Positions 9,701-26,028 of a DNA stretch of 64,000 bases are shown here, in pieces. The stretch lies in NCBI GenBank assembly GCA_017303795.1, contig JAFLBR010000001.1:310001-374000 (forward strand), in the 5' to 3' direction. The notes below the pieces were generated by a model. That model was not told the DNA's origin. It did no database searches and worked only from the letters and a program-made list of their open reading frames with translations. Each line of letters starts with the position of its first letter. The first letter of the stretch is position 1. The DNA is from Cytophagales bacterium (GTDB lineage Bacteria > Bacteroidota > Bacteroidia > Cytophagales > Cyclobacteriaceae). The translations under genes were made by a program, and so were the position numbers.

Positions 9701-9792
9701 TTCAGAATGGTGGTAACACCCAGGGCAATTATCATTAAAAAGATAACCAGTGTAAACTGGTAATTCTTCACGGCATATTCTGAGATTTTCAT
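6748..9792 (-). CDS. RND-family efflux permease
   Basis: Inner-membrane proton-driven pump subunit of a tripartite efflux system, 1014 residues (family usual about 1000-1050). The layout is standard: one N-terminal helix (about 12-32), a large periplasmic porter domain, TM2-6 from about 335, a second porter domain, and TM8-12 at the C-terminus. The paired aspartates D397/D398 in LLVDDSIVVVEN on TM4 are the proton-relay residues. It is more like the HAE-1/MdtB-type drug pumps than CzcA metal pumps, but the substrate cannot be told. It lies 12 bp after the adaptor gene and is the last gene of the tetR-tolC-adaptor-RND operon. Confidence 0.95.
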   Translation of the reverse strand: MKISEYAVKNYQFTLVIFLMIIALGVTTILNMPRSEDPELNAPQFPIVVVYPGTSPKDMEELVVEPLERVISELEDLKRIKTTISDGVAVLFVEYKYESDVDEKYSELVREVNALRDELPQNIASIEVRKVTPSDVNVIQIALVSENASRESLKKYAEDLQEVLEQVKSLKKVQIHGLPEKIVRIDLKLEKLAQMRIPTEAVIGTLQNEIANIPGGNVNAGTKSFNIKTSGNYTNHTEIKNTIVYSANNKNILLGDVADVYPSFEDETHITRLNGYRSVFVTAAQKQGENITKIQKVYKQAIADFEKRLPANIDLVHHFDQADNVNKRLSGLGFDFMLAILLVAITLLPLGQRAALIVMISIPLSLAIGIVLMNALGYNLNQLSIVGLVVALGLLVDDSIVVVENIERWMRDGHSRLEATLKATQQIGLAVVGCTATLIIAFLPLVFLPEGAGEFIRSLPMGVITSVLASMLVSLTIIPFLSSRLLKENHGHPDGNMFMRALKKVIHGSYSKLLDKALAKPWWTVAVALIVFLASLQLFPIIGFSLFPASEKPQFMVEITTPLQSNLAFTDSITKKVEHELSLHKQVKYYATNVGKGNPRIYYNVIPENERTDYTQIFVQLNEETPAEEKLKLIEKLRTAWTPYPGAKVEVKNFEQGPPINAPVEVRLFGENLDTLRTLATRVETLLEKTPGTIYITNPVMHLKSDIKVDINKEKAQMLGVSTLAIDRTVRLAVAGLNLGKFSDETGDDIDIILTKSKTGTPTLDALQNIYVTNNQGRAVPLTQLAELKLESSPLSINHYDKVRMISLTAFVDKNFLVGNVVTDVIEQMDAIQLPAGYSYGMGGEVESRQESFGGFESVIIVTIFLFIAVLILEFRTFKSTLIVLSVIPLGVVGAVLALLLTGNSLSFVAIIGLIALAGIEVKNTILLVDFTNQLRQQGKSLEDAIREAGEVRFLPIILTSMTAIGGLLPIALSSNPLISPLAIVLIGGLISSTLLSRVVTPVVYKLIPPRIEK

Positions 9793-9804
9793 ACACTATA
9801 GAAT

Positions 9805-10839
9805 TTAGTTTGCACTCAGACTTAAAGCAGTTCCTTCTTTCAGATAAGCGCTACCACTTACAATTAGTTGCTGGCCATCTTGCAAACCTCCACTTATCAA
9901 CACAAAGTCTTTTTCAATCCCACTTACTAGTACAGGTACTTTTCTGGCTTTGTTATTTTCATTGATAAATACATACCCGTTTTGTGCGTTGCCGTCCAAC
10001 AAGGCTTCGTATGGAATCTTCCAAACATTTTGTTTCTGTTTAACAGTGATTATTGCCTTTCCGAAAAGTCCGGCAGCAAGCCCGGCATCGGTATTTAAAG
10101 TGATTTCAATATTCAATGCTCCGTTGGCAGCATCTACCGCGGCTGATTTTTTGGTTACTGTTCCTTGCCAGGTTTTATCGGGCAAAGCATCGCTACTGAT
10201 AATTGCTCCATCCCCTGGTTGAATCATAGCCCAATCTCTATCACTCACGCCAGTTCGTAAAATCCAGTTTCCTTTACCGGAACCATTGGTTTGAAAAACG
10301 GTAGTGCCGGGCGAAATCACCTGGCCTTCGTTAACCATTTTTCGTAACACCATTCCATTGCTTATTGCTCTTATTTCAGAGTAGGTTCGGTTAAAACGTG
10401 CACTCTCTAATTGTTTACGGGCAACATCCAAACCTGTTTGTGCATTTTGAAATTGCTCTAAAGTTGCTACACTATCTTTATAGAGATTTTGTGCGCGATT
10501 AAAATCGCGGGTAGCTTTTTCAATAGCGAGTTGAGCCTGCGCTACCTGAGCATCAATTTCAGTCAGGTTGAGTGTGGCTAAAAGTTGCCCGCTGCGAACT
10601 GGATCACCTTCCTTTACATAGATTTTTTCAATTACTCCGCCAGTCTTAAAAGCCAGCAGTGTTTCATCATCGGTAGTAAATACACCCGAAGTATGAATGA
10701 CCGGTTGAAGTTGTTCGGCCTTTAGTTCAATTGTGCTTACCGGCACAACATCTTTAGGCGTTTCGGTACTTGAGTTTTTGGGTGAGCTGCAGGCCGCTAG
10801 TAATAAGCCTGCTAACATCCATGTAAGAATTGATTTCAT
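9805..10839 (-). CDS. RND efflux periplasmic adaptor (membrane fusion protein)
   Basis: Adaptor joining the inner-membrane pump to the outer-membrane channel; 344 residues. The N-terminus is a lipoprotein signal (LAGLLLAACSS), so it is probably lipid-anchored. A lipoyl/barrel-sandwich half follows (GGVIEKIYVKEGDPVRSGQ), then a helical hairpin at about 95-150, the second lipoyl half (SNGMVLRKMVNEGQVISPG), a beta-barrel and a membrane-proximal domain. It sits between the TolC and RND genes with short gaps, as usual for these operons. Confidence 0.93.
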   Translation of the reverse strand: MKSILTWMLAGLLLAACSSPKNSSTETPKDVVPVSTIELKAEQLQPVIHTSGVFTTDDETLLAFKTGGVIEKIYVKEGDPVRSGQLLATLNLTEIDAQVAQAQLAIEKATRDFNRAQNLYKDSVATLEQFQNAQTGLDVARKQLESARFNRTYSEIRAISNGMVLRKMVNEGQVISPGTTVFQTNGSGKGNWILRTGVSDRDWAMIQPGDGAIISSDALPDKTWQGTVTKKSAAVDAANGALNIEITLNTDAGLAAGLFGKAIITVKQKQNVWKIPYEALLDGNAQNGYVFINENNKARKVPVLVSGIEKDFVLISGGLQDGQQLIVSGSAYLKEGTALSLSAN

Positions 10840-10863
10840 AGTAAATGGTTAATTTTTTTGATT

Positions 10864-12210
10864 TTACTTTAGTGGAAATGAAGCTGTTTCGCGTTCAAGA
10901 TTCGCCATAGCTATAAGTACGCGATACTGGTTTAGGGCAAGTTGAAGTTGCGCACCGGTTAGTTGCGTGCGGGCATCAACCGATTCAATAAATGTATTGG
11001 CACCTTCTTTATAACCTTTTTCAATCAGGCGCTGATAGCTCTGCGCAGCCTCTAATTGTTTTTGTGCTGAGCGATAATTTTGTTTCGCACTTAATAAAGC
11101 ATTGCGCGAAGTTTCTAACCCCAGATTCAGTTGCCGCGTAGTATGTTGTAAGGTGAGATCAACAGATTTAACATCTAATCGGGATTGTGCGATTTTATGC
11201 CGGTTGGTAAAGCCCGCAAACAAGGGCACTTCCAATTGCACGCCAAGCAAGTAGTAGTTTGCATTGCTATTGTATTTCATTTGTTCGCCTTGAGCACCCA
11301 AATCTATAAAGCCACTAATGCGGGGCATCCAGAAGAGACGTGTCATTTCCTGTACATCCTGTTGAATCTGTGTTGCCGTTTGGAGTTGTAAGAATTCTTC
11401 ACGGTTTTGTGTGGTGTTGAGGTTTGAGTCGTCAATATTTAATGAACTTTCTTCCGAAGTCAGAATTTCAGCATGAGCATCTCGATTCAGCAAAAAGTTG
11501 AAATAGAGGTGTGCGTTCTCAACTTGTCTTTCGGCATCTGCAAGTTGTGCTTTGGTATTTTCCAATTCGCTTTGCGAACGAAGAATGTAAGCCGGTAAAC
11601 CCTTACCGTTTTCAAGCAGCGATTCATTCACCCGTTTTCCTTCTTCGGCCCTGGCAAGGGCACTTTTATAAATAAGCACGCCTTGCTGCGCAGCCAGATA
11701 ATTATAATACGACACTTTTATGCTTCGAATCAGTTCACGTTTATAAACAGCCACTTCTGCTTCCTGCAAAAGCGTTTGTTGAGCTTTAATCTTTCGGTTG
11801 TAAATCAAATCGGTATTAAGGATGGGCATGGATGCACGCGCACGTACATCATAGAAATCGCGCGGAAAGAAATTCTGATTTACATTTTCAATGGTTGGAA
11901 AATTATTGGTGCCAGTTAACTGATTAAGTGTGGAGTAAACCGGGTTTAGTAAATCCCCAACAGGAAAGCTAATGCTACGACCACCATCGCCTGTCGTGTA
12001 ATTCCCCAACAGGGTAAGAGAAGGGGAGAACATGCCATTGGCAACCTTTAGTGCCAGCAATGCTTTGTCTAATGCAATGTTCTTTTGCTGAAGCACGAGG
12101 TTGTTTTTCAAACCTGCTTCTATGTAACCATCAAGTGGTTGTTGCCCAAACACTGGCACTATTGCCGTAATCAGGCAAATGACAAGGGCTTTAATTAATA
12201 GTGTTCTCAT
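10864..12210 (-). CDS. TolC-family outer-membrane efflux channel
   Basis: Outer-membrane factor of the tripartite pump, 448 residues. A signal peptide ends near VPVFGQQP. The remainder is two OEP repeats of long amphipathic helices rich in Gln, Asn and Ala that form the periplasmic tunnel, with beta segments between them (for example YYLLGVQLEVPLFAG). Length is normal for the family. It starts 34 bp after the tetR stop and precedes the adaptor, so the operon encodes a complete pump. Confidence 0.93.
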   Translation of the reverse strand: MRTLLIKALVICLITAIVPVFGQQPLDGYIEAGLKNNLVLQQKNIALDKALLALKVANGMFSPSLTLLGNYTTGDGGRSISFPVGDLLNPVYSTLNQLTGTNNFPTIENVNQNFFPRDFYDVRARASMPILNTDLIYNRKIKAQQTLLQEAEVAVYKRELIRSIKVSYYNYLAAQQGVLIYKSALARAEEGKRVNESLLENGKGLPAYILRSQSELENTKAQLADAERQVENAHLYFNFLLNRDAHAEILTSEESSLNIDDSNLNTTQNREEFLQLQTATQIQQDVQEMTRLFWMPRISGFIDLGAQGEQMKYNSNANYYLLGVQLEVPLFAGFTNRHKIAQSRLDVKSVDLTLQHTTRQLNLGLETSRNALLSAKQNYRSAQKQLEAAQSYQRLIEKGYKEGANTFIESVDARTQLTGAQLQLALNQYRVLIAMANLERETASFPLK

Positions 12211-12243
12211 ACTAAACGGTGTTAATTGAAGGGGTAAATTTTT

Positions 12244-12885
12244 TTAAGTCTTAAGTTTTTCCAGAATGATAACAAAGGTTTCAAAGATGGAGCTCATAAG
12301 TTGATCGAGGTCTTGATCGCTGGCCTTGGCAGCAGCCACATGGCTAAGGTGGCCGGTAGTTCGCAGCGTACAAAGGCCATGCATGGTACTCCAGATTACA
12401 AACGAAACCTGCTCCGTAGCGAAGTCTTTGAAGTAATCCAGCTTCTGGCATTCGCCTACAGTTTTCAGCAGAATATCAAAAGCACGGTCGCCCTCATCCC
12501 ACTCCTCAAAACAGTTGGCCACGTGTTTCAGCGGCTCTTCCATATTGAATATAAGTTTATAAATATCAGGGTTTTGCAAGGCAAACTGGATGTAAGCCCG
12601 GCCCATTCCTTTTAACCTTTCAAAAGGATGCGAGATGTGGTTTAGTACTTCAAAATGGCTTACCAATAACTTAAACCCTTCGCTATGTAAGGCATGCACA
12701 ATCTCGTTTTTGTCTTTGTAGTAGAGATAGATGGTTGCGGGCGAGTACTCAATCTTTTCGGCAATGGCGCGAATGGATGTTGCCTCAAGACCTTTCTCCG
12801 TAAAAAGTAATTTTGCGGCATCCAGAATTTCTCGTTTAAGATCTTCCTTGTGGCGTTCTTTTCTTTCGGCTACTCCCATATGCAT
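12244..12885 (-). CDS. TetR/AcrR-family repressor of the efflux operon
   Basis: Regulator of 213 residues. The N-terminal TetR helix-turn-helix (about 16-62) reads REILDAAKLLFTEKGLEAT then IRAIAEKIEYSPATIYLYYKDK, a textbook match. The C-terminal ligand-binding region is of the TetR_C_33/WHG type. An ATG at 12879 (MGVAERKERH) is an equally possible start. First gene of the efflux operon, so it probably represses itself and the pump until the ligand binds. A nested pair of inverted repeats lies 18-48 bp upstream of the start. Confidence 0.93.
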   Translation of the reverse strand: MHMGVAERKERHKEDLKREILDAAKLLFTEKGLEATSIRAIAEKIEYSPATIYLYYKDKNEIVHALHSEGFKLLVSHFEVLNHISHPFERLKGMGRAYIQFALQNPDIYKLIFNMEEPLKHVANCFEEWDEGDRAFDILLKTVGECQKLDYFKDFATEQVSFVIWSTMHGLCTLRTTGHLSHVAAAKASDQDLDQLMSSIFETFVIILEKLKT

Positions 12886-13056: not shown

Positions 13057-14964
13057 GTGGTGCGAGTTATTTTTACGCTTTTACTTTTTGTTGGGATATT
13101 TGGTGTGAAGGCGCAAACGGCTGCTACGCTCGATAGCCTGGATGAGAAAGTCTTTCTACTCAATGAGCTCGATTTTTTTATTGATCCAACAAATTCACTT
13201 TCGTTTGAAGAGATTTCATCTGCAAGGTTCAGCAACCAGTTTGTGCGTAGGCCAACGTATCAAAATAAAGATTATCGGTCGGGCGAATCGTATTGGATTC
13301 GGTTTTCAGTAGATCATATTCCCACCGAAAAAGTTTGGCTGATAGAATTTTATGATCAGACAATCGATCATGTGGAAGCTTATGTGCCCAAGCCGGATGG
13401 TATGTACGAAAAGAAAGTAATGGGCGATGCGCTTACGTTCCAGAACCGAAAATTTGCACACAAGAATTTTGAAGTACAACTCTATCCCCACGAAAACTCC
13501 GTTCAGTATTATTACTTCAGGGTTCAATCGCACGAGTTTGCAGATATTCGAATAGCCTTCCGCTCGGTTGATCGTTTTATTTCTTATTCCCTTAACGAAT
13601 ATTTTTTGTTCGGCACTTTCTACGGCATGATTGTAATCATTGCCCTCTATAATTTCCTGGTGTTTCTGGCTATACGCGAAATCAAAAACGTGTATTACAT
13701 CTTCTATATAATAAGTGTGGCCTTGTATGCTATGAGTCTGGATGGTGTAGGGTTTCAATACATCTGGTCTAACTTTCCGCAATGGAATAATTATGCTTCG
13801 GGTATTTGTCTTTACTCGGTAATTCTGTGGGCCCTTGTTTTTACTCGAAGATTTCTAAGTACGCGTACCAAAGCGCCTCGGCTCGATCTTGCCCTGCGCA
13901 TAATGATTGTGGTGCGTACATTGGTGTTTGTATTTGAGTTGTTCTTCTATCCTGAATTTTTTGCATTCCGGTTTATAGAAATCTTACCGCTTGCGCTGAT
14001 TTATTATTCGGGTGTTTATGTGTTGATGCGCGGCTATCGTCCAGCCCGGTATTTTGTTATTGCATTTGGATTATTGCTGATTGGTTTTTTTGTGCGCACG
14101 CTCGTGTTCTTTAACATCATTGCTTTAACTACACTATCGCATTATAGCTTACACTTTAGTTTTGTGGTCGAAATGTTGTTCCTCACGTTCGCGTTGGGCG
14201 ATAGAATTACCATTCTAAAGGATAACCGGGATCGGGCTTTGCGCAGAATCATTCATCAGCATGAAGTAAACATGGCTTTGAAAGATAAGGTAACGTTGGA
14301 GTTGGAGCAGAAGGTAATGGAGAGAACAACCGAACTGAATCATAAAAATACCGAGCTGGAGGAAATCAATACGCGGTTGGTAAAACAAACCCACGAAATC
14401 AATCAGATTAATTCTGTGTTGGATCTGGACAATTGGAAACTGAAGAACAGGATTAAAGTAGTGCTGGAAGAACGCCTGATGGAGAAGACTATGGATTACG
14501 AGGAGTTTAAAACCTTATATCCCGACTCATTGGCGTGCTATCGTTTTTTGGAAGAACTAAAATGGAACAATGGCTTTACCTGCCGCAAGTGTGGCAACAA
14601 CAAATACTTTGATGGCGCCCAGAAATTTGCGCACAGGTGTACCCGATGTGGTTACAATGAGTCAATAACTGCGTACACGGTTTTTCATGGCATCAAATTC
14701 CCGATTGAGAAGGCATTTTATATTGCCTACCTGGCCGTAGTGGGTAAAAAACCTTCAACCTTAGAATCCTTGTCGGCCCAGTTAGATGTAGGGATAAACG
14801 CCATTTGGGGTTTCCGCAAAAAAGTAGTGGAGCGGATTACCGAATTGAGCGAACACGGCAATGAAATTACAGCCGCCAAGTGGCAGGATGTTATTCTCGA
14901 TTCTGTTCACAAATCCCCAAAATCAAAAACCAGAACTACCAAAGCAGAAAACGTTTCCGAATAA
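13057..14964 (+). CDS. 7TMR-DISM receptor with C-terminal IS1595-type zinc ribbon
   Basis: Membrane receptor of 635 residues. Starts at GTG (13057, or 13060) followed by a signal peptide ending near GVKAQ. Residues about 30-165 form the periplasmic 7TMR-DISMED2 jelly-roll domain, often predicted to bind carbohydrates. Seven membrane helices (7TMR-DISM_7TM) cover about 180-390, then a coiled coil at about 395-475. The C-terminal part is unexpected: after YPDSLACYRFLEELKW comes a four-cysteine ribbon (CRKCGNNK ... CTRCGYNESITAYTVFHG) typical of the zinc-binding N-terminal domain of IS1595-family transposases, plus the following helical segment. No DDE catalytic domain follows. It is therefore a likely membrane-tethered DNA-binding protein. 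It sits 225 bp upstream of susC on the same strand. Confidence 0.85.
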   Translation: MVRVIFTLLLFVGIFGVKAQTAATLDSLDEKVFLLNELDFFIDPTNSLSFEEISSARFSNQFVRRPTYQNKDYRSGESYWIRFSVDHIPTEKVWLIEFYDQTIDHVEAYVPKPDGMYEKKVMGDALTFQNRKFAHKNFEVQLYPHENSVQYYYFRVQSHEFADIRIAFRSVDRFISYSLNEYFLFGTFYGMIVIIALYNFLVFLAIREIKNVYYIFYIISVALYAMSLDGVGFQYIWSNFPQWNNYASGICLYSVILWALVFTRRFLSTRTKAPRLDLALRIMIVVRTLVFVFELFFYPEFFAFRFIEILPLALIYYSGVYVLMRGYRPARYFVIAFGLLLIGFFVRTLVFFNIIALTTLSHYSLHFSFVVEMLFLTFALGDRITILKDNRDRALRRIIHQHEVNMALKDKVTLELEQKVMERTTELNHKNTELEEINTRLVKQTHEINQINSVLDLDNWKLKNRIKVVLEERLMEKTMDYEEFKTLYPDSLACYRFLEELKWNNGFTCRKCGNNKYFDGAQKFAHRCTRCGYNESITAYTVFHGIKFPIEKAFYIAYLAVVGKKPSTLESLSAQLDVGINAIWGFRKKVVERITELSEHGNEITAAKWQDVILDSVHKSPKSKTRTTKAENVSE

Positions 14965-15189
14965 AGGCGTAGTGCCACGCATTGCAGGCGATTGTTTTTT
15001 AATAAAAAATTTGCTGACTAAAGTGCCTTAAATATGCCAGTAAACGTTTGAAATCAATGTTTTTATTCAATGAAAAGCCATTTTTCGCAACGTCCAGTTT
15101 GCGGAAGATTAAAAGCACATTTTATCAAAAATATTAGCCTTATCAGTTGCAGATGTCAAAATTCATACTGCGAAACAATCAAATCGCGT

Positions 15190-18100
15190 ATGTCTATGAT
15201 GAGAAAATTACTATTAACTGCTTTATTTTCAGCGTTTTTGCTGAATTTAGCAATGGCCCAAGACCGAGTTGTGTCTGGGAAAGTGACCTCTGCGGATGAT
15301 GGAACCACCCTTCCGGGGGTAAGTGTGTTGGTGCAGGGTACTACTAAAGGTACTGCCACCGATGCGAACGGTGCCTATTCAATTTCTCTCGCCTCTGGCG
15401 AAAACACCCTTGTGTTTAGTTTTATCGGGTACAAAACCCAGACTATTGCGGTTAGCGCCCAATCTACTGTGGACATCATATTAGAAACGGACATTACCGC
15501 ACTTGAAGAAGTTGTGGTTGTGGGTTACGGTGTTCAGAAAGAGAAGGATTTGACATCATCGATTACAACGGTAAGAGCAGATGAAATCTTGAAGACGCCA
15601 CAAGGTCAGGCCATGCAATCATTGCAAGGTAAAGTACCAGGTCTTCAGATTATTAATAATGGTGCACCAGGTGCCAGCCCAACTGTTCGGGTTCGGGGTA
15701 TTGGTTCAATGCCAGACCAAGGAGATACCGATCCGCTATATGTAGTTGATGGTATGTTCTTCGATAATATAGACTTCCTTAACCCTGCCGATATTGAAAC
15801 ACTTTCGGTATTGAAAGATGCATCAGCAGCCGCCATTTACGGTGTAAGGGCAGCGAACGGAGTAATTCTTATCACTACTAAAACGGGTAAGGTTAATCAA
15901 AAGACTGAGATAAACTATAATGGTTATTATGGTGTGCAGGTTGCACAAAACGTTTTAAAAATGGCAAACTCCGAGCAGTATGCTAATTATGCATTGGCAA
16001 CAGGAGTTCCAGCTGAGGCAAACTTTGTTAATAATGCATTTCAGTTTTATGGCAGAAGCCGCGTTAATCCAAATGTGCCCGATGTAAATACTGATTGGTA
16101 TAATGAAGTATTACAGACAGCGCCAATTCAAAATCATTCTATCAGCATTACCGGTGGAGAGAATAAAGTTCAATACTCTGTGGGTGCTAGTTATTTTGGT
16201 CAGGAAGGTCTGCTTCGGGTTGTTGAGAATAATTACGAACGTTTAAATTTTAGAGCTAAAGTTGATTTTCACGCTACAGAAAAATTAAAAGTAGGGGTTA
16301 ACCTGAACGTAAGTAATGCGCGCCAGCATGAAGCTGATGGCGGGGTATGGGCAACAACATATTTTGCTGTTCCTATAATGCCAGTATTTGATGCAGGCAA
16401 TACTTTGGCCGATCCTATTGGTCTGGCCAGTGCAAAACGTTTAGGCTATCGCGATAGCAAAAATCCTTTCTTTAATCTCTACAATACTAATAACAGAAAG
16501 AACATTGGTAAGTTGTTAGGCAATGTTTATTTCGATTATCAGTTGTTGGAGGATAAGCTTTCGTTCAAAATGAGCTATAACTTTAGCAATGAAACTATAA
16601 ATGAGCGCAGAGTAAATTTTGCCTACAACGATGGGTTTATTCAAAGCCAGAATGGTTTAACCCGAACCAACCGCACCTGGACTAACCAGATAGTTGATAA
16701 CATCTTAACGTATAACGATAACTTCGGAAATCATAACCTTACCTTGATGGCGGGTTATTCATTCAGAAGTGAAATAAATGAAGGTAGCTTTGCGCGAGGT
16801 GTAAATATTCCTACGCTTGACAGGAATAGGGAAGAAACCTGGTTTATTGGATCTATACCGAATGGCAATGGTGGTGTTACTGGTGGAACTGTAGTAGATA
16901 TAGATAACACCGGTGATTTTGGTGATCGTTTATTTGGAGTTTCTTATCTGGGTCGCGCTGCTTATAATTATGCTGATAGATATTTACTGTACGCAACCTT
17001 CCGTAGAGATGGAACTAATAAGTACCAACAAACGTGGGGTAATTTCTTAACCTTAGGTGGTGGTTGGGTAGTTTCAGAAGAAAGTTTCTTTCAATTCCCT
17101 GCTATTAACTTCCTGAAAATACGCGGAAGTTGGGGCCAGTTGGGTAACGATAATGTTGCGCCTTCTATTGGTAGCCCTACCGTTCAGGTTGTAAATACGG
17201 CTATTGGTAATACTAACTCAACAGGTATTTACATCAATACAAACTTCGATTATGTAGATCGTTGGGAAACTGTTTACGAGACCAACGTAGGGGTAACAGC
17301 AAAAGCATTGCGCAATCGCTTATCTGCTGATATTGATTATTACGTACGCGATACACGCGATGCTGTACTTCGTGTAATTGTTCCTGGTTCAGGCGATGTA
17401 ATCCGTAGAAACGGTGGTATCATCCGCAACTCAGGTTTGGAAGCAGCATTAAATTGGTCAGCCGCAATTAATTCAGACATTACTTACAATGTAGGTTTAA
17501 ATTTCGCAACACTTAAGAACGAAACTCGCGATTTGCGCGGTCAGGCTTACTTAGACTATGGAACCGCGGAGTTTTTACAACGCACCATAGTGGGAGATCC
17601 GCTTACCGCTTTTTACGGCTATGAAGTAGAAGGTGTGTTTCAAAATGTAAACCAGATCAATAACAGCGGTTATTCAGCCGAGTTCATTGCATCGCGCGGA
17701 TTGGTTCCTGGTGACTTCTTCTTTAAAGATCAGAATAATGATGGCCAGATCAATGGCGATGACCGTGTAGTAATTGGTTCAATTCTTCCAACGTTTACTT
17801 ATGGATTTAATCTGGGTGTAGCCTGGAAAAATTTAGAGTTGTCGGCCAACTTCCAGGGCATGTCGGGCCATAGCATTTTGAATAGAAAGCGTGGTGAAAT
17901 TAACTGGACTGAAGATAGCAACATCGATGCAGATCTTGCTACAAACTTTTGGAGAGGTGAAGGAACTACCAACGAATATCCAGCAGCAGCAGGGCTAAGG
18001 GGTTCAAGAAAATCATGGAACAATAGCATGAGTACTTACTTAGTGGAGGATGGAAGTTACTTCCGCATTCAGAATGTAAGGTTATCCTATAACTTAGGTA

Positions 18101-18273
18101 AACGCGATTTGTTAGGAATTGCAATGCCTGAAACCATGTTTACGTTTACGGCTGAGCGTCCACTTACGATGTTCAACTACAATGGATTTAATCCAGAAGT
18201 AGCCAATGGAATAGATAACCAGACTTATCCGATTCCTGCAGTTTATACAATTGGTCTTAATGTGAAATTTTAA
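15190..18273 (+). CDS. SusC/RagA-family TonB-linked outer-membrane receptor
   Basis: TonB-dependent importer of oligosaccharides across the outer membrane. The frame is open from 15070, but the signal peptide MMRKLLLTALFSAFLLNLAMA begins at 15190-15199, so the upstream part is untranslated leader. After the signal comes a CarboxypepD_reg-like domain (about 25-110), the SusC signature EEVVVVGYGVQKEKDL, a plug domain with IRGSM-like PTVRVRGIGSMPD, then the 22-strand barrel ending in an aromatic-rich C-terminus. Mature length is normal (about 1025 residues). It pairs with the SusD gene that overlaps its stop region, and opens the PUL. Confidence 0.95.
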   Translation: MSMMRKLLLTALFSAFLLNLAMAQDRVVSGKVTSADDGTTLPGVSVLVQGTTKGTATDANGAYSISLASGENTLVFSFIGYKTQTIAVSAQSTVDIILETDITALEEVVVVGYGVQKEKDLTSSITTVRADEILKTPQGQAMQSLQGKVPGLQIINNGAPGASPTVRVRGIGSMPDQGDTDPLYVVDGMFFDNIDFLNPADIETLSVLKDASAAAIYGVRAANGVILITTKTGKVNQKTEINYNGYYGVQVAQNVLKMANSEQYANYALATGVPAEANFVNNAFQFYGRSRVNPNVPDVNTDWYNEVLQTAPIQNHSISITGGENKVQYSVGASYFGQEGLLRVVENNYERLNFRAKVDFHATEKLKVGVNLNVSNARQHEADGGVWATTYFAVPIMPVFDAGNTLADPIGLASAKRLGYRDSKNPFFNLYNTNNRKNIGKLLGNVYFDYQLLEDKLSFKMSYNFSNETINERRVNFAYNDGFIQSQNGLTRTNRTWTNQIVDNILTYNDNFGNHNLTLMAGYSFRSEINEGSFARGVNIPTLDRNREETWFIGSIPNGNGGVTGGTVVDIDNTGDFGDRLFGVSYLGRAAYNYADRYLLYATFRRDGTNKYQQTWGNFLTLGGGWVVSEESFFQFPAINFLKIRGSWGQLGNDNVAPSIGSPTVQVVNTAIGNTNSTGIYINTNFDYVDRWETVYETNVGVTAKALRNRLSADIDYYVRDTRDAVLRVIVPGSGDVIRRNGGIIRNSGLEAALNWSAAINSDITYNVGLNFATLKNETRDLRGQAYLDYGTAEFLQRTIVGDPLTAFYGYEVEGVFQNVNQINNSGYSAEFIASRGLVPGDFFFKDQNNDGQINGDDRVVIGSILPTFTYGFNLGVAWKNLELSANFQGMSGHSILNRKRGEINWTEDSNIDADLATNFWRGEGTTNEYPAAAGLRGSRKSWNNSMSTYLVEDGSYFRIQNVRLSYNLGKRDLLGIAMPETMFTFTAERPLTMFNYNGFNPEVANGIDNQTYPIPAVYTIGLNVKF

Positions 18274-18287
18274 TGTTAGGAATAACT

Positions 18288-19832
18288 ATGAAAATAATTA
18301 AAACAAAGAAGTGGTTGGCGATGATGCTCCTGATTGGAACACTTTCGGCCTGTGATAGCTTCTTAAATGAACCCCTTGAGCGTGCCGTGGTGGTGGACGA
18401 TGGAACAAGTTCCATTGATATGCAAGGGTTGATTATAGGTGCCTATGCGAGATTTTATGATTTTGGATGGGAGGTATATCCTTTGATTGCCGTACGTGGC
18501 GATGATGTGAATGCAGCTGGTGATCAGGCTCCTTTAACAGAAACCGATGAATTTAAGTACAGTAATTCGACCTGGATGCCAAATAGTGTTTGGCAAGGTT
18601 TGTATAGCGATTTAATCATATTCAACGATATGATTGAGGACATTGCCTTCTTGAACCAATCGGCTGCTAACCCTGCAATAGGTGAAAGATACATTGCTGA
18701 AATTAAAGTAATGCGTGCCTTTGAACTTTTGCAGATTGCACGACTGTGGGGCAATGTATTGGTACCTAATGTTACCAACATGGCCGAAATTGTGAACGTA
18801 CCAGTTTCTTCATACGAAGAAGTTATGCAACATATTTCAGCACAAATGGATGAGGCTGTTCCAGCTTTACCAAACCTTCGTCCCAATCAACGTACCGATA
18901 TTGTGGGTGGCATTACAAAACATGCTGCACTTGCAATAAAGGCATGGGCTAATATTGAAATTAAAAACTGGAGCGAAGCCGCGGAAGCAACAGGTGAAAT
19001 TATTTCTTCTAATATGTTCACCCTGTCAAATAACTACTATGATCTTTTCAAAATTCCAGGTAAACTGGACAACGAGAATATTCTTGAACTTCAATATTCT
19101 GATTTTGGTCAGGGTTCTGGTGCTCAGAGCAGTTACCTGTATGCTTTCTTTGGTCCTAATGCCTGGACTCCAGCAGTAGCTGGTTCTGGTGGTGGTTGGG
19201 GTTTCTGGGAGCCTACCCAGAAGTACATCAAGTTTATGCTTGACCGTGGTGAAGAAGAAAGATTGACAACCAACGTTTTGTTTACACTAAATGGAATGAG
19301 CTTGATTGAAGCTGATCCTAACTACGATCCACTTCCGGCATTCATTAGCAACACAACACCCGATGGTGATGTGATTGGAAATGCAAATGGAGACCCTGAA
19401 GCTCGTGCGCAGTTTTCAAGTGGGAAACACTATACGCCATCTAATCAATTAACTACTGGTCGTACCGATTACGGCACCAACAACAACTTCCGTTGCATAC
19501 GCTATGCGCATGTGTTATTGATGCATGCTGAGGCGTTAGTGATGAGTTCAGGTAGTTCTACACTTACGGCAGATGCTGCAGTTAATCTGGTGCGCAATCG
19601 TGCAGGCCTTCCATCGATCACTGGCGTTGATATCCAGGATGTATTAGATGAAAAATATGCCGAGTTGGCAATGGAATGGGGTACACGTTTTGAAGATTTG
19701 GTTCGTCATAACAGAACCAGCGAACTGAACGATAGCCGTAGAACCTATACTGATGCAGATAGATTCTTGCCTTATCCTCAGGCACAAGTAGATATTTTAC
19801 CCTTACTTAAAGCTGCACAAGCCAATAACTAA
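18288..19832 (+). CDS. SusD/RagB-family surface lipoprotein
   Basis: Glycan-binding lid of the SusCD importer, anchored outside the outer membrane. I prefer the ATG at 18288 (MKIIKTKKWLAMMLLIG) because it gives a clean lipoprotein signal with lipobox TLSAC; an ATG at 18273 overlaps the susC stop. The TPR-rich SusD fold is visible throughout, with the usual C-terminal segment (ALVMSSG..., LVRNRAGLP, EKYAELAMEWGTRFEDLVRH) found in RagB proteins. 515 residues, normal. Substrate specificity follows the nearby enzymes and is probably a beta-glucan. Confidence 0.95.
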   Translation: MKIIKTKKWLAMMLLIGTLSACDSFLNEPLERAVVVDDGTSSIDMQGLIIGAYARFYDFGWEVYPLIAVRGDDVNAAGDQAPLTETDEFKYSNSTWMPNSVWQGLYSDLIIFNDMIEDIAFLNQSAANPAIGERYIAEIKVMRAFELLQIARLWGNVLVPNVTNMAEIVNVPVSSYEEVMQHISAQMDEAVPALPNLRPNQRTDIVGGITKHAALAIKAWANIEIKNWSEAAEATGEIISSNMFTLSNNYYDLFKIPGKLDNENILELQYSDFGQGSGAQSSYLYAFFGPNAWTPAVAGSGGGWGFWEPTQKYIKFMLDRGEEERLTTNVLFTLNGMSLIEADPNYDPLPAFISNTTPDGDVIGNANGDPEARAQFSSGKHYTPSNQLTTGRTDYGTNNNFRCIRYAHVLLMHAEALVMSSGSSTLTADAAVNLVRNRAGLPSITGVDIQDVLDEKYAELAMEWGTRFEDLVRHNRTSELNDSRRTYTDADRFLPYPQAQVDILPLLKAAQANN

Positions 19833-19840
19833 AATTCAGA

Positions 19841-21550
19841 ATGATGAAAACGAATAGATTATTCATATTACTGGCGGGATTGATTCTCGTGTGGTCTTGC
19901 AAAGATGGCTTTATTGATGACATCACTGCGGTTTCTCCGGGTGCCGATCTGACTGCACCTCAGATTAGTGTAGCGTATCCAACGGAGGGAACTAAAATTA
20001 AGGTGAATGAAAATATAACCTCCATCAATATTGATTTCCAGGCATCGGATGATATTGAGTTAGGAACTGTTACAATAAAAGTTGACGATGAGGTTATTGC
20101 ATCCTTTAATGAATTCAAGGATTATAGGGTTCTTAAAACACAATATTTATATGAGAGCCTGACTACCGGTGTGCACGTGCTAAGTATTACTGCTGTTGAT
20201 CTTGAAGGTAAGAGCACAACAAAACTTGTTAACTTCGAAAAAGAGCCTGCCTACATTCCCAAGTATGAAGGTGAGGTTTTTTATATGCCTTTTGATGGTA
20301 GTTTTATTGAACTGGTTAGTGTTACCAATGCTACTGTAGTGGGAACTCCTGGCTTTTCAACAAACTCAATTGCCGGAACTAATTCTTATGCTGGCGCTGC
20401 CAATTCATACCTTCAATTTCCATTAGCCGGACTAGAATTAGAGGATGAGTTTACTGTTGCTTTTTGGTATAAAGTAAATACCACTCCTGATCGGGCAGGT
20501 ATTTTAAGTGTAGGCCCTCCCGGAATTAATACCCGAACCAGTGGTTTCCGTTTGTTCCGCGAAGGCGGAGCGAATCCTTTAAAGAGCAACATAGGTCTAG
20601 GCACTGAAGAATCCTGGAATGATGGAGGTGCCATTTCAACTACCGAATGGGTATTCGTTAGCATGGTTGCAGGAAGCGGTTCGCATGGCATTTACGTAAA
20701 TGGAAATCTGCTAAGAGCGCAATCAGCCTACACAGGTGCTCTTAGTTGGGCTAACACCGCTTTGTTGACGATTGGATCAGGTGCTCCGAATTTCATAGAA
20801 TGGAACCATCTTTCTGATAATAGCCAGATTGACGAATTAAGGATTTTTAATAAGAAACTTACTCAAGAAGAGGTACAGTTCGTTATGCAAACGTCTGCTC
20901 AAGAGCCTTATGAACCCATGTATGAGGGTGAAGTTTTCTACATGCCCTTTGAAAACGACTTGTATAATGATCGCATAAGCGAAACAGCTGCAACTGTTGT
21001 AGGTTCACCATCATTTGGTATTGGTAAGGAAGGCGATGCATATGAGGGTGCCGCTGACTCGTACCTGACCTTTCCAATAGCAGATTTAGGTTTAGAAGAT
21101 GAATTCAGTATTTCATTCTGGTACAAGGCCAACATCACGCCCGATAGAGCTGGAATTCTTACTGTAGGCCCTCCAGGAATTAATACAAGAACAAGCGGCT
21201 TCCGCTTATTCCGTGAAAGCGGGGCTGGCGTATTAAAAAGTAATGTAGGCATGGGTACCGGTGACCAATGGAATGATGGTGGAGCTATTTCAGCTACTGA
21301 CTGGGTATTTATTACCATGGTGGTAGGCGAGGGTGCGCATGGCATTTACGTAAATGGCGCCTTATTGAGGGCTGAAACAATTTTCACAGGAAGTGTTAGT
21401 TGGGCCGATTGTGAATTTTTGTCGATTGGTTCTGGTGCGCCTCGTTTCACTGAGTGGGGTCATCTTTCTGATAACAGTTTGATTGATGAGATCAGAATCT
21501 TTAATCGTAAACTTTCTCAAGCTGAAATACAAGATATGATGAACGACTAA
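19841..21550 (+). CDS. Surface glycan-binding lipoprotein with two tandem LamG-like domains
   Basis: Takes the SusE/F or surface glycan-binding protein position of the PUL. 569 residues: lipoprotein signal (lipobox LVWSC), an Ig-like domain at about 40-140, then two concanavalin/LamG-type units at 142-360 and 361-569. The units are an internal duplication with a period of 219 residues (657 bp); both start YEGEVFYMPF and share VGPPGINTRTSGFRLFRE and HGIYVNG. Duplicated sugar-binding domains suggest avidity for a polymer. The gene lies 8 bp after susD. Ligand is inferred from context only. Confidence 0.85.
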   Translation: MMKTNRLFILLAGLILVWSCKDGFIDDITAVSPGADLTAPQISVAYPTEGTKIKVNENITSINIDFQASDDIELGTVTIKVDDEVIASFNEFKDYRVLKTQYLYESLTTGVHVLSITAVDLEGKSTTKLVNFEKEPAYIPKYEGEVFYMPFDGSFIELVSVTNATVVGTPGFSTNSIAGTNSYAGAANSYLQFPLAGLELEDEFTVAFWYKVNTTPDRAGILSVGPPGINTRTSGFRLFREGGANPLKSNIGLGTEESWNDGGAISTTEWVFVSMVAGSGSHGIYVNGNLLRAQSAYTGALSWANTALLTIGSGAPNFIEWNHLSDNSQIDELRIFNKKLTQEEVQFVMQTSAQEPYEPMYEGEVFYMPFENDLYNDRISETAATVVGSPSFGIGKEGDAYEGAADSYLTFPIADLGLEDEFSISFWYKANITPDRAGILTVGPPGINTRTSGFRLFRESGAGVLKSNVGMGTGDQWNDGGAISATDWVFITMVVGEGAHGIYVNGALLRAETIFTGSVSWADCEFLSIGSGAPRFTEWGHLSDNSLIDEIRIFNRKLSQAEIQDMMND

Positions 21551-21627
21551 TTAGTCATTCATCAAAGATACTGATGAGTACATCTCATCTTTTTAGGTTA
21601 ATTGTTTGTTGTTTAGGAGTTGTTTAT

Positions 21628-21654
21628 AAGAGGATACCTTTCCGGTATCCTCTT
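21628..21654 (+). terminator. Intercistronic hairpin inside the PUL
   Basis: Perfect 11-bp stem AAGAGGATACC / GGTATCCTCTT with a 5-nt loop, between the LamG lipoprotein and the glucanase genes. A weak T-rich tail follows. It may be a partial terminator that sets the surface-protein genes above the enzymes, or a processed-end stabiliser. Confidence 0.55.
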
Positions 21655-21666
21655 TACTTACTGGCT

Positions 21667-23640
21667 ATGGTTAAAAGATTTTTTTTATTCAGTTTCCTCT
21701 TACTTGTTCTTTTCGTTTCAGGTTGTAAAGAAGATGAAAGCATTGCAGAGATTGATTTAATTGCAGTGTTTGTAGATTCTGATCCGCTTGACCTTTCAGG
21801 CACCCTAAATATTGATGTTCCTGCTTCTGCAATACTTACCCTTTCATTCTCATCACCAATAGTTCCTTCGTCAGCTAACACGGCCATACTTCTTACAACA
21901 GATGCCGGTATCGTTGATGTAACCTTCAATTTTCTAAGTGAAAATAAATTAGTGGTAGTGCAGCCCATTGGTGCATTGGAGGTAAGCACCATTCATAAAA
22001 TTACCATTACCGATCAGCTTCAAGGTGCAAATGGTGCAGCGTTTACCACGCGCGAAGTGAATTTTAAAACTGTACCTGGTAGTTTGCAATTGGTAGCTAC
22101 TCGTGTAAATAATGAAGCAGTATCGGCCGCAAGTGTTACCGATGTTCCGGTTACGGCACTTCAGGTTGAATTTGATTTTTCAGTTCCACTTGATCCCACC
22201 ACAGTAACGAGCACTATATTCAGAGTTACCGGCCCCTCAACTGTTTCGGGTACTGTTCAGTTGTTGAACGATAACAAAACGGTAAAACTTACTTCGGCTT
22301 CAACACTTCAACATCTTAGAAAATATACAGCCATTATCTCAAATGGATTAAAAGGTGTGGAAGGTCAATCGTATGCCGGGTTGCAACGTGATTTCTATAC
22401 CGCTATTGATCCAACTCCCAAATTCCCGCTTATCTCCGATGAAGAACTGCTCACCAAAGTGCAGCAACAAACCTTCAAATACTTTTGGGATTTTGGTCAT
22501 CCTGCCAGTGGTATGGCGCGCGAACGTAACACCTCGGGCGATCTTGTTACCAGTGGTGGCTCAGGCTTTGGATTAATGTCGATTATAGTTGGGGTTGAGC
22601 GTGGGTTTATTACCCGCACGCAAGGAATAGAACGAATTGATAAAATTCTTGACTTCCTCGAAACAGCCGATCGGTTTCATGGTGCGTGGTCGCATTGGAT
22701 AAATGGAAACACAGGCGATGTAATTGCATTCAGTGCAAATGATAATGGTGGCGATCTTGTAGAGACTTCATTTCTTGTTCAGGGATTAATCACCGTGAGG
22801 CAATACCTGAATGCAGGGAGTCCAACAGAAAATCAATTGATCACACGCATCAATACATTATACCAGGGCGTAGAATGGGATTGGTATCGGCAAAATGCAC
22901 AGAATGTAATGTACTGGCATTGGTCGCCCGACAAAGGTTGGGCAATGAACTTGCAGGTAAGGGGTTGGAATGAAGCCTTAATGGTTTATTTGATGGCGGC
23001 AGCTTCACCTACTCACACCATTCCTAAAATTGTGTATGACAATGGTTGGGCAAGTAATGGCAACATGCGCAATGGTAATGTTTACGAAGGCATTACACTA
23101 CCACTGGGCTATCCGTCTGGCGGGCCTTTATTTTTATCGCAGTATTCTTTTTTGGGTTTAGATCCTAATAATCTTGCTGATGCCTATTGTGCCGATTACT
23201 TCAATCAGAATCGCAATCATTCTTTAATCAATTATAAATATTGTATCCGTAACCCGCGCGATTATGTTGGGTACAGCAGTTCTAACTGGGGCCTTACCGC
23301 CAGCGATAATCATCAAGGGTATAATGCACATTCGCCTACAAATGATCTGGGTGTGATAAGTCCCACAGCGGCATTGGCTGCTTTCCCTTACACACCAGAC
23401 GAATCCATGGAGGCATTAAAGTTCTTTTATTATACCATGGGCGATAGGCTTTGGGGACAATATGGTTTTTACGATGCCTTTAACATTACCGAAAACTGGT
23501 ATGCAAGTTCTTATCTCGCCATAGATCAGGGACCTATTATTATCATGATTGAAAATCACAGAACTGGTTTACTGTGGGATTTATTTATGTCAGCACCAGA
23601 AGTACAAGCCGGATTGACCAAACTTGGCTTTACTTATTGA
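21667..23640 (+). CDS. GH144-like endo-beta-1,2-glucanase lipoprotein (Glycoamylase domain)
   Basis: Predicted surface or periplasmic glucanase. The frame is open from 21574, but the ATG at 21667 gives a lipoprotein signal (FSFLLLVLFVSGC); 657 residues. Two Ig-like (Big_5-type) domains cover about 35-230 with lines such as ALQVEFDFSVPLDPTT. The rest is an (alpha/alpha)6 Glycoamylase domain (PF10091): QQQTFKYFWDFGHP, GSGFGLMSIIVGVERG, ETSFLVQGLITVRQ and NWGLTASDNHQGYNAHSP. From memory, GH144 endo-beta-1,2-glucanases such as the Chitinophaga pinensis enzyme carry this domain. Other members of the Pfam family have unknown activity, so substrate is a good guess rather than proof. Followed by a GH3 gene after a 111-bp gap. 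Confidence 0.8.
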   Translation: MVKRFFLFSFLLLVLFVSGCKEDESIAEIDLIAVFVDSDPLDLSGTLNIDVPASAILTLSFSSPIVPSSANTAILLTTDAGIVDVTFNFLSENKLVVVQPIGALEVSTIHKITITDQLQGANGAAFTTREVNFKTVPGSLQLVATRVNNEAVSAASVTDVPVTALQVEFDFSVPLDPTTVTSTIFRVTGPSTVSGTVQLLNDNKTVKLTSASTLQHLRKYTAIISNGLKGVEGQSYAGLQRDFYTAIDPTPKFPLISDEELLTKVQQQTFKYFWDFGHPASGMARERNTSGDLVTSGGSGFGLMSIIVGVERGFITRTQGIERIDKILDFLETADRFHGAWSHWINGNTGDVIAFSANDNGGDLVETSFLVQGLITVRQYLNAGSPTENQLITRINTLYQGVEWDWYRQNAQNVMYWHWSPDKGWAMNLQVRGWNEALMVYLMAAASPTHTIPKIVYDNGWASNGNMRNGNVYEGITLPLGYPSGGPLFLSQYSFLGLDPNNLADAYCADYFNQNRNHSLINYKYCIRNPRDYVGYSSSNWGLTASDNHQGYNAHSPTNDLGVISPTAALAAFPYTPDESMEALKFFYYTMGDRLWGQYGFYDAFNITENWYASSYLAIDQGPIIIMIENHRTGLLWDLFMSAPEVQAGLTKLGFTY

Positions 23641-23751
23641 GGCTATGAAAAATGTGTTGAAAAAGACTTGGAGATTTTATCAATAACCAGTTTCAAAAAA
23701 TTATCTGATCAAAAATCGAAAATTGTAAATCGAACATCGAAAATAAAAATA

Positions 23752-26028
23752 ATGAAATCTCTTTATCCACTCGCATTAGTTGTTGCACTTGCTTCGTGCA
23801 ACGGCCGTCAGGCACAACATCAATCTGGTATTGATGCCCGTGTTGATTCCGTGTTAAATATAATGACACTGGAAGAAAAAATTGGTCAATTGAATCTGCC
23901 ATCTGCCGGACAGTTTACAACCGGTGCAGCTGAGAATTCTGACATCGCCAAAAAAATTGAGAATGGCCAGGTAGGTGGTTTGTTTAATATTAAACGTGTA
24001 GCCGCTATTCGCGAGATGCAGCAGATTGCAGTCGAGAAGAGTCGCTTAAAAATTCCGCTCATCTTTGGTATGGATGTAATTCATGGTTACGAAAGCGTAT
24101 TCCCAATTCCGTTGGGGATAAGTTGCAGTTGGGATATGGAATTGATTGAACGCAGTGCGCGCATTGCCGCAACCGAGGCCAGTGCCGATGGTATCAACTG
24201 GACGTTTTCACCCATGTTGGATTTATCGCGCGATCCGCGTTGGGGTCGTATCTCAGAAGGTAACGGAGAAGATACGTACCTGAGTTCTCAAATCGCGAAA
24301 GCAATGGTGCGCGGCTATCAAGGTAATGATCTCGCTGCTAACAACACCATCATGTCGTGTGTAAAACATTTTGCCTTGTATGGCGCAGCCGAAGCGGGTC
24401 GTGATTATAACACAACCGACATGAGCCATCAACGCATGTACAACGAATACTTTCCACCGTACAAAGCAGCAGCAGATGCAGGCGCTGGAAGTTTCATGGC
24501 CTCGTTTAACGAGATAGATGGTATTCCGGCAACGGCCAACAAATGGTTGCTTACCGATGTGTTGCGTAAGCAATGGGGCTTTAATGGTTTTATTGTTTCG
24601 GATTACACCGGTGTAAGCGAAATGATTGCACACGGCATTGGCGATTTGCAAACTGTTTCTGCACGTGCTGTTGATGCCGGTTTGGATATGGACATGGTAA
24701 GCGAAGGATTATTAACCACGCTAAAAAAATCTGTAGAAGAAGGAAAAATTAGCGAAGCTCAGATTACCGAGGCTTGTCGCAGAGTTTTGAAAGCTAAGTT
24801 TCAATTGGGTTTGTTTGATGATCCGTACAAGTATTGCAATGAAGAGCGAGCAAAGACGGAAGTATTTACTGCGGCCAATCGTGCAGAAGCGCGTAAGGCT
24901 GCCACTGAAAGTTTTGTATTGCTAAAAAATGAAGGTAACGTTTTGCCTTTAAAAAAATCCGGAACTATTGCTGTGGTGGGCCCAATGGCTAACTCGCGCG
25001 AAAACATGACCGGCACATGGAGCGTGGCGGCACGTTTTTCAGAATCCATTTCAGTAATGGATGGTTTAACCAAAGCTGTAGGCAACAATGCAAAGTTGGT
25101 TTATGCACGTGGTTCAAACCTGCACGAAGATGCCGCTATTGAAGAACGCGCCACCATGTTTGGTAAATCTTTGAATCGCGATAAACGTTCAGCCGAAGAA
25201 ATGCGAGCCGAAGCAGTTAGAGCAGCACGCACAGCCGATGTAATAGTGGCTGTAGTAGGCGAGGGGGCCGAGATGAGTGGTGAAGCGAGTAGTATAACCA
25301 ATCTGGAGTTACCGCAAACCCAACGCGAGTTATTAAAAGCATTGTTGCAAACCGGTAAGCCTGTAGTTGTGGTTTTATTTACAGGTCGTCCGTTGGTGTT
25401 GAAGTGGGAGAATGAAAATGTTCCGGCTATACTGAATACCTGGTTTGGTGGCAGTGAAGCGGGTGATGCTATTGCCGATGTGTTGTTTGGTTCGGTAAAT
25501 CCTTCAGGTAAACTTTCAACCACATTTCCGCAAAACGTAGGACAAGTTCCCTTATACTATGCGCATAAAAACACGGGTCGTCCGCTTAGCGGACCGTGGT
25601 TCCAGAAATTTCAATCTAATTACATCGATGTTTCGAACGAACCGGTTTATCCGTTTGGCTACGGATTAAGTTATACTTCGTTTATGTATAGCGATTTAAA
25701 ACTGGATAAACCTTCTATGACGCAATCCGAAACGATTACTGTATCAGTTGATGTAACCAATACCGGTAAATACGATGGTGCCGAAGTAGTGCAACTTTAC
25801 ATTCGCGATTGGGTAGGTTCTGTTACCCGACCAGTTAAAGAACTGAAAGGATTTAAGAAAGTAATGATCAAAGCCGGAGAAACACAAACGGTAACTTTTC
25901 AACTCACCAAAGAAGAACTTTCATTCTTTAATTATGAATTGAAGTGGGCTGCTGAGCCAGGTGAGTTCAGTGTGTTTGTGGGCGGCAATTCGAGGGATGT
26001 GAAGGAAGCGAAATTTACATTGCAGTAA
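23752..26028 (+). CDS. GH3 beta-glucosidase lipoprotein
   Basis: Exo-acting beta-glucosidase that would release glucose from oligosaccharides made by the neighbouring glucanase. The frame opens at 23668, but the ATG at 23752 gives a lipoprotein signal (LALVVALASC), so that start is chosen (758 residues). The N-terminal TIM barrel ends with the nucleophile D284 in FIVSDYTG; the alpha/beta sandwich follows with GEGAEMSGEASS carrying the likely acid/base Glu; the C-terminal Fn3-like domain starts near QSETITVSVDVTNTG. Length is normal for BglX-like GH3. Related GH3 enzymes in Bacteroides beta-1,2-glucan loci prefer sophoro-oligosaccharides (recalled knowledge). Last gene of the PUL. Confidence 0.93.
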   Translation: MKSLYPLALVVALASCNGRQAQHQSGIDARVDSVLNIMTLEEKIGQLNLPSAGQFTTGAAENSDIAKKIENGQVGGLFNIKRVAAIREMQQIAVEKSRLKIPLIFGMDVIHGYESVFPIPLGISCSWDMELIERSARIAATEASADGINWTFSPMLDLSRDPRWGRISEGNGEDTYLSSQIAKAMVRGYQGNDLAANNTIMSCVKHFALYGAAEAGRDYNTTDMSHQRMYNEYFPPYKAAADAGAGSFMASFNEIDGIPATANKWLLTDVLRKQWGFNGFIVSDYTGVSEMIAHGIGDLQTVSARAVDAGLDMDMVSEGLLTTLKKSVEEGKISEAQITEACRRVLKAKFQLGLFDDPYKYCNEERAKTEVFTAANRAEARKAATESFVLLKNEGNVLPLKKSGTIAVVGPMANSRENMTGTWSVAARFSESISVMDGLTKAVGNNAKLVYARGSNLHEDAAIEERATMFGKSLNRDKRSAEEMRAEAVRAARTADVIVAVVGEGAEMSGEASSITNLELPQTQRELLKALLQTGKPVVVVLFTGRPLVLKWENENVPAILNTWFGGSEAGDAIADVLFGSVNPSGKLSTTFPQNVGQVPLYYAHKNTGRPLSGPWFQKFQSNYIDVSNEPVYPFGYGLSYTSFMYSDLKLDKPSMTQSETITVSVDVTNTGKYDGAEVVQLYIRDWVGSVTRPVKELKGFKKVMIKAGETQTVTFQLTKEELSFFNYELKWAAEPGEFSVFVGGNSRDVKEAKFTLQ

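Follow-up and report, generated by a model that had tools for sequence, protein, structure and literature searches.

How is a polysaccharide utilisation locus (PUL) controlled when none of the usual regulator genes accompanies it? Control of PULs in Bacteroidota is commonly attributed to SusR, to hybrid two-component systems (HTCS; in which a single chain with a large periplasmic sensor regulates the PUL) or to pairs of extracytoplasmic function (ECF) sigma and anti-sigma factors. The 64-kb window considered here, i.e. the whole stretch analysed (Cytophagales bacterium, assembly GCA_017303795.1, contig JAFLBR010000001.1, positions 310,001–374,000 of the forward strand), carries a PUL preceded by the gene of a membrane receptor with a transposase-type C-terminal module. 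Its domain architecture, its homology to transposases, the grouping of such modules in a tree, its association with PUL genes and a pair of DNA repeats that track the receptor were established by computation, and we put at about 0.8 the probability that the receptor acts as a one-component transcription regulator that is tethered to the membrane and controls the adjacent PUL. A sequence-only reading of the window had made the same proposal, noting the lack of a SusR, hybrid two-component or sigma/anti-sigma gene nearby. This lack was borne out, as none of the three types was matched among the 20 neighbouring proteins scanned (approx. 1.3–37 kb of the window, save several small genes). The regulator-type matches in this set were to a LuxR-type response regulator (1354–1989), LysR (2229–3155), TetR (12244–12885) and YebC (27947–28654), and to no others.

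A 7TMR-DISM receptor with an IS1595-type output module

The receptor open reading frame (ORF) encodes 635 aa from a GTG start codon and is organised as follows (HTH, helix-turn-helix; TM, transmembrane):

13057..14964, + strand: putative receptor-regulator gene; signal peptide, 7TMR-DISMED2, 7TM, coiled coil, IS1595 Zn ribbon and HTH-like segment (ORF, Pfam, AlphaFold2)
13165..13554, + strand: periplasmic 7TMR-DISMED2, residues 37–166 (Pfam; Foldseek match to the RetS periplasmic domain 3jyb)
13597..14205, + strand: 7TMR-DISM_7TM, residues 181–383 (Pfam; hydropathy)
14146..14466, + strand: helix from TM7 through the coiled coil, residues 364–470 (AlphaFold2 model)
14530..14655, + strand: Zn_ribbon_IS1595, residues 492–533, with Cys 509, 512, 528 and 531 (Pfam; invariant cysteines)
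14704..14853, + strand: trihelical HTH-like segment, residues 550–599 (models; homology to IS1595 transposase N-termini; weak HTH-type matches)

Both domains that define the 7TMR-DISM class, the periplasmic DISMED and the 7TM domain, exceed their Pfam cut-offs (86.2 bits against 22 for 7TMR-DISMED2, 148.8 bits against 29 for 7TMR-DISM_7TM), and the modelled periplasmic part resembles the RetS domain 3jyb (Foldseek TMt 0.71, E 3.4e-4). The AlphaFold2 model of the full chain (mean pLDDT 83) has residues 364–470 as a single helix and falls below pLDDT 50 at residues 461–477. The hydrophobic stretches and the spread of positive loops, read by eye from a plot, fit a periplasmic N-terminus and a cytoplasmic C-terminus. 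The fusion of a sugar-binding-like periplasmic domain, seven helices, a coiled coil, a four-cysteine ribbon and a helical segment, as first read from the sequence, was confirmed by Pfam and AlphaFold2. Pfam searches found no histidine kinase, receiver or AraC domain in the receptor, which is therefore not an HTCS. Sensor, transmembrane anchor and DNA-binding-type domain, with neither kinase nor receiver, stand in one chain, which is the layout of a one-component regulator; the output module is classed as DNA-binding type because it is homologous to transposases.

The evidence for this kinship is as follows. The ribbon scores 35.6 bits against the Pfam cut-off of 25.4, in accordance with the IS1595-type match claimed for the C-terminal region, and its four cysteines do not vary across 33 aligned members. 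Residues 547–595 align with positions 3–52 of the NCBIfam IS1595 transposase model, at a sub-threshold score (15.9 bits, cut-off 75). The chain stops approx. 36 residues past the HTH-like segment, and PF12762 (DDE) was not matched at E ≤ 10 in a Pfam search of the receptor, so that, as the sequence-only reading had held, the Zn ribbon and N-terminal helices of an IS1595 transposase are present and the DDE catalytic domain is not. Structure prediction of the isolated module, a check suggested in that reading, gave a trihelical segment after the ribbon (AlphaFold2, mean pLDDT 88); its HTH-type structural matches were weak only, and PDB sequence matches reached E 0.027 at best. As a whole, the module is homologous to transposases, with frames of 306–339 aa in genome G199 matching at E down to 5.5e-45; in one of these frames the ribbon exceeds its cut-off and the DDE_Tnp_IS1595 match is sub-threshold. 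The N-terminal stretch common to receptors and IS1595 transposases, i.e. ribbon and trihelical segment, spans approx. 125 residues. Against three relatives, the module has a nonsynonymous divergence (dN) of 0.10–0.17, the synonymous divergence (dS) being too saturated to estimate.

In a tree of 65 modules, 40 sampled receptors were split by a 97/90 branch from 25 transposase or other modules. Placed among the 7TMR receptors were two proteins, L164 (997 aa) and L165 (1068 aa), that carry Reg_prop propellers and a Y_Y_Y ectodomain on the same output module; we take this ectodomain to be of the type known from HTCS regulators. Neither protein had a Pfam match to histidine kinase, receiver or AraC, and SusC–SusD genes lie directly downstream of L165, but not of L164. 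As the receptors group on one side of the branch, with the Reg_prop proteins among them, the tree fits a single capture of the IS1595 module followed by exchange of the sensor, the direction of capture being only inferred because the root was set at the midpoint. Elsewhere (L138, L142, L147–L149, L244–L251), ORFs of approx. 150–190 aa hold little besides the Zn-HTH module; since many near-identical copies occur in G613, these are probably the first ORF of a two-frame insertion sequence there.

Spread of the family and its association with PULs

A scan of genome contigs recovered 39 loci with 32–86% identity to the window receptor. The full protein was matched at E ≤ 1e-10 in 27 of 39 related genomes (its own included), some of them only through 7TMR proteins with other outputs (e.g. 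L002, L060). An output-module profile hit 47 of the 395 genomes from the phylum at E ≤ 1e-6, in many cases through transposase-size frames, and 146 of the 390 from the order at E ≤ 1e-15 (nine candidates scored per genome); the order-wide matches listed were mostly frames of approx. 600–740 aa. In ten divergent members, both 7TMR domains were above the Pfam cut-off in all ten, and the ribbon was above it in five and below it in five. Recurrence on this scale rules out an assembly artefact as the source of the fusion, which had been named beforehand as an outcome that would undo the proposal. Two receptor genes of this family stand in tandem in L189 (9657–13482), and the L182 receptor, read as two ORFs of 199 and 475 aa, is probably broken or misassembled.

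Downstream of the window receptor lie a SusC–SusD pair and glycan-degrading enzymes, i.e. a PUL:

15070..18273, + strand: SusC (Pfam)
18273..19832, + strand: SusD (Pfam)
19841..21550, + strand: protein with two Laminin_G_3 (LamG) stretches (Pfam)
21574..23640, + strand: PF10091 enzyme, relative of the endo-beta-1,2-glucanase 5gzh (Pfam; PDB sequence match)
23668..26028, + strand: glycoside hydrolase family 3 (GH3) enzyme, beta-glucosidase type (Pfam; PDB sequence match)

The best PDB matches of the PF10091 enzyme were putative glucoamylases (4gl3, E 1.3e-161) and 5gzh (E 1.4e-150), the family of which we take to be GH144. The GH3 enzyme matched 3u48, 5xxl (periplasmic beta-glucosidase), Lin1840 and many others, and some of its structural relatives presumably act on beta-1,2-linked glucose. 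Judged from these two enzymes, beta-1,2-glucan is the likely target of the PUL. The receptor gene is also abutted by a divergent, TetR-led efflux operon (window 6748–12885; HlyD by Pfam, TolC and RND by eye), which is missing beside the receptor in L005, L008 and L015, where the PUL side is retained.

Across 98 receptor loci (five near-identical pairs included), a same-strand SusC was the first gene of 130 aa or more downstream in 66, and SusC lay within three genes downstream in 72; a PF10091-type gene occurred within six genes in 45 of the 66. That homologues are never found near PULs, which together with a lack of DNA binding had also been named beforehand as fatal to the proposal, is excluded by these counts. 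In a hand-picked sample of 40 loci from the whole order, SusC came next in 21 (in L161 with a 96-aa antisense ORF between), and in L181 a GH3 gene separates the two. Neither control set had SusC next downstream: 0 of 20 loci with ribbon-less 7TMR-DISM receptors, and 0 of 20 with the module outside receptors. Among these control loci, L140 gave no ORF with the module and L137 had no downstream gene inside its stretch. Elsewhere in the control loci there were weak SusC-model matches (66–103 bits; L116, L119, L126, L127) and SusC or SusD matches (L132, L134, L138).

The enzymes beside the receptor differ between loci, with GH30 in L061, L168 and L176, PKD with GH16 in L102, GH3 with GH5 in L104, GH2 with GH5 in L105 and a chondroitinase-B-like enzyme in L106; in L066, cytochrome-like and FG-GAP proteins follow SusC–SusD in place of such enzymes. 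A second gene matching the window PF10091 enzyme stands directly upstream of the receptor in L014, L017, L023, L035, L036, L039, L107 and L108. In L170 (5789–9666) a pfkB-type kinase and an ADP-ribosylglycohydrolase, not a PUL, come after the receptor, and in L038 (7584–11788) and L163 (1276–5477) an outer membrane protein gene (called by Pfam on L038 only) overlaps at its end with the receptor ORF, with no adjoining SusC–SusD; L040 and L041 have the same gene order.

Paired repeats between the receptor gene and susC

Alignment of eight close orthologs revealed a conserved block between the receptor gene and susC, a stretch in which two direct repeats lie:

14988..15009, + strand: operator-like repeat copy 1, core TGTTTTT at 14993
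15053..15074, + strand: operator-like repeat copy 2, core TGTTTTT at 15058, conserved extension from 15045

The alignment suggests that the true start of SusC is near 15190–15199, downstream of copy 2. An expectation-maximisation (EM) motif search of 40 regions of 330 nt scored 281.5 (66.6–69.9 for three shuffles); it also brought out another, weaker copy upstream. Exact direct TGTTTTT pairs at 64–66 bp were present in 28 of 93 regions downstream of a receptor, whereas any of 200 dinucleotide-block shuffles gave one at most and other spacings never gave more than two. With one mismatch allowed there were 45 such pairs against a shuffle mean of 2.8 and a maximum of 9, a few other spacings being raised too. 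All 28 exact pairs belong to receptors at least 55% identical to that of the window, i.e. to its own branch. A consensus-free test gave a 64–66 bp signal of 16.9 (shuffle maximum 4.6) in 31 spacers picked by matrix, and of 2.5 (shuffle maximum 3.25) in the 31 remaining ones.

A pair matrix was trained on 18 loci (16 first copies) that do not belong to the clade nearest the window, at sites located by a motif learnt on a set that included the window. Its best score across the 64 kb fell at 15053 (23.3 bits, runner-up 12.0). None of the 21 further SusC-like matches in the genome scored above -1.7; a few of these are fragments of a single gene or start within it. The exact double core has two matches in this genome, one being the window site; in each related genome it recurs a few times, about as often as the reversed control. 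One double-core match lies just behind the receptor gene in 12 of the 16 genomes of the same genus (own included) whose receptor is at least 53% identical.

The repeat goes with how similar the receptor is rather than with how similar SusC is. Scored with a matrix from the window and six close orthologs, it was mostly kept in 25 loci with a receptor at least 55% and a SusC less than 45% (33–44%) identical to those of the window (median 18.0 bits, five below 4), and mostly lost in 12 loci with a receptor below 55% and a SusC of at least 48% identity (median -0.95 bits); the difference (p = 8e-5) is optimistic because the loci share ancestry. Spearman correlation of the repeat score was 0.63 with receptor identity and 0.26 with SusC identity. 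Similar receptors adjoin a SusC only 33–37% identical to that of the window in L009, L010, L011, L013, L014, L017, L018 and L022–L024, and less similar receptors adjoin one of 56–59% identity in L025, L028 and L030, which suggests that the porin was replaced in situ.

Related-looking motifs were found by EM in other subfamilies, each beating three shuffles (108 against 50–54 in 16 loci, 50 against 37–39 in five, 51 against 34–37 in four and 70 against 44–45 in seven), the loci being few and related and the 16-locus set holding the duplicate pair L028/L156. In one subfamily set the spacing was 80–81 bp in four of five loci, the first copy in the fifth being below background. No likeness of the repeats to insertion sequence terminal repeats was evident by eye at the copy ends in G613 (left ends only, the right ends being beyond the contigs) and G388; the copies compared in G199 were too diverged to define ends.

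A proposed tethered regulator and its rivals

We infer DNA binding, the ligand, dimerisation and the sign of regulation as follows. The DISMED2 domain would bind an oligosaccharide in the periplasm; the 7TM unit and the helix into the coiled coil would relay the signal and bring two copies together; in the cytoplasm, the Zn ribbon and HTH-like part would bind the two direct repeats, which lie 65–66 bp or about six helical turns apart upstream of susC; and the bound receptor would switch transcription, more likely as an activator. This proposal, carried over from the sequence-only reading, is strengthened by the HTCS-type ectodomain on the same module, by the grouping beside transposases and by the receptor-tracking repeats. 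Weighing against it, 26 of the 98 receptor loci have no SusC within three genes; some members have no PUL beside them (e.g. L029, L038, L062) or no SusC nearby (L063, beside a sulfatase where the contig ends, L169, L170, and L172, beside a GH10 gene); and distant subfamilies, some also adjoining SusC, are without this exact repeat. A longer history, which we hold less firmly though still consider probable, is that an IS1595 N-terminus was captured once behind a receptor, spread over many PULs and later had its sensor swapped from 7TMR-DISM to Reg_prop/Y_Y_Y, the tethered copies binding paired repeats upstream of susC and drawing the promoter to the membrane.

The receptor might instead signal by protein contact, its ribbon and helices recruiting a partner and not DNA. 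Zn ribbons can bind proteins, the output module has no confident structural match to a DNA-binding domain and some family members are away from PULs; nevertheless, ribbon and trihelical part are both homologous to the transposase N-terminus, and a paired DNA repeat that tracks the receptor lies between its gene and susC, which makes this alternative unlikely. Slightly less likely still, the repeats could be a general susC promoter or leader element, or belong to the 3' end of the receptor gene, and be bound by something else while the receptor acts elsewhere. They do sit in a short intergenic stretch with T-runs, and in this form are absent from distant subfamilies beside SusC, but no comparable pair precedes the other SusC-like matches of the genome, in 30 loci (L109, with 465 bp, set aside) the distance from copy 2 forward to the SusC ORF start is 117–198 bp but that back to the receptor stop 64–285 bp, and it is the receptor that the repeat follows. 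That the module, which groups with IS1595 transposases, is a functionless captured transposon fragment is very improbable given its invariant cysteines, low dN against saturated dS, presence in over a third of the order sample and occurrence on a second sensor type.

Compared with known systems, the proposed tethered regulator shares with the transmembrane transcriptional regulators ChiS, TfoS, CadC and ToxR a sensor, a membrane anchor and a DNA-binding output in one chain, ChiS and TfoS answering chitin (PMC11856585). It differs from these four in its output, an IS1595-type Zn ribbon with an HTH-like part, in its neighbour, a susC-led PUL, and in its putative operator of direct repeats 65–66 bp apart. 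The likeness to HTCS lies in the ectodomain of L164 and L165; unlike HTCS, neither these nor the window receptor have a histidine kinase, receiver or AraC match, and the window protein uses DISMED2 and 7TM. With the 7TMR-DISM receptors RetS, LadS and SagS it has DISMED2 and 7TM in common, but the outputs known for that class are kinases, phosphatases and cyclases, and here the output is a transposase-type module. IS1595 transposases share the N-terminal Zn ribbon and trihelical segment, whereas the window protein is without DDE and has the module fused behind a membrane receptor. A literature search covering few subscription journals found no paper joining 7TMR-DISM with a zinc ribbon or polysaccharide utilisation, the IS1595 zinc ribbon with transcription, the transposase zinc ribbon with SusC, or a membrane-tethered transcription factor with polysaccharide utilisation loci.

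The receptor probably belongs to a hitherto undescribed type of gene switch that serves polysaccharide digestion. If so, it would represent a further class of regulator, present in over a third of the sampled genomes of the order, that explains PULs without a SusR, HTCS or ECF gene, and a bacterial case in which a membrane receptor has taken over the DNA-binding module of a transposase as its output, for which a specific operator is predicted.
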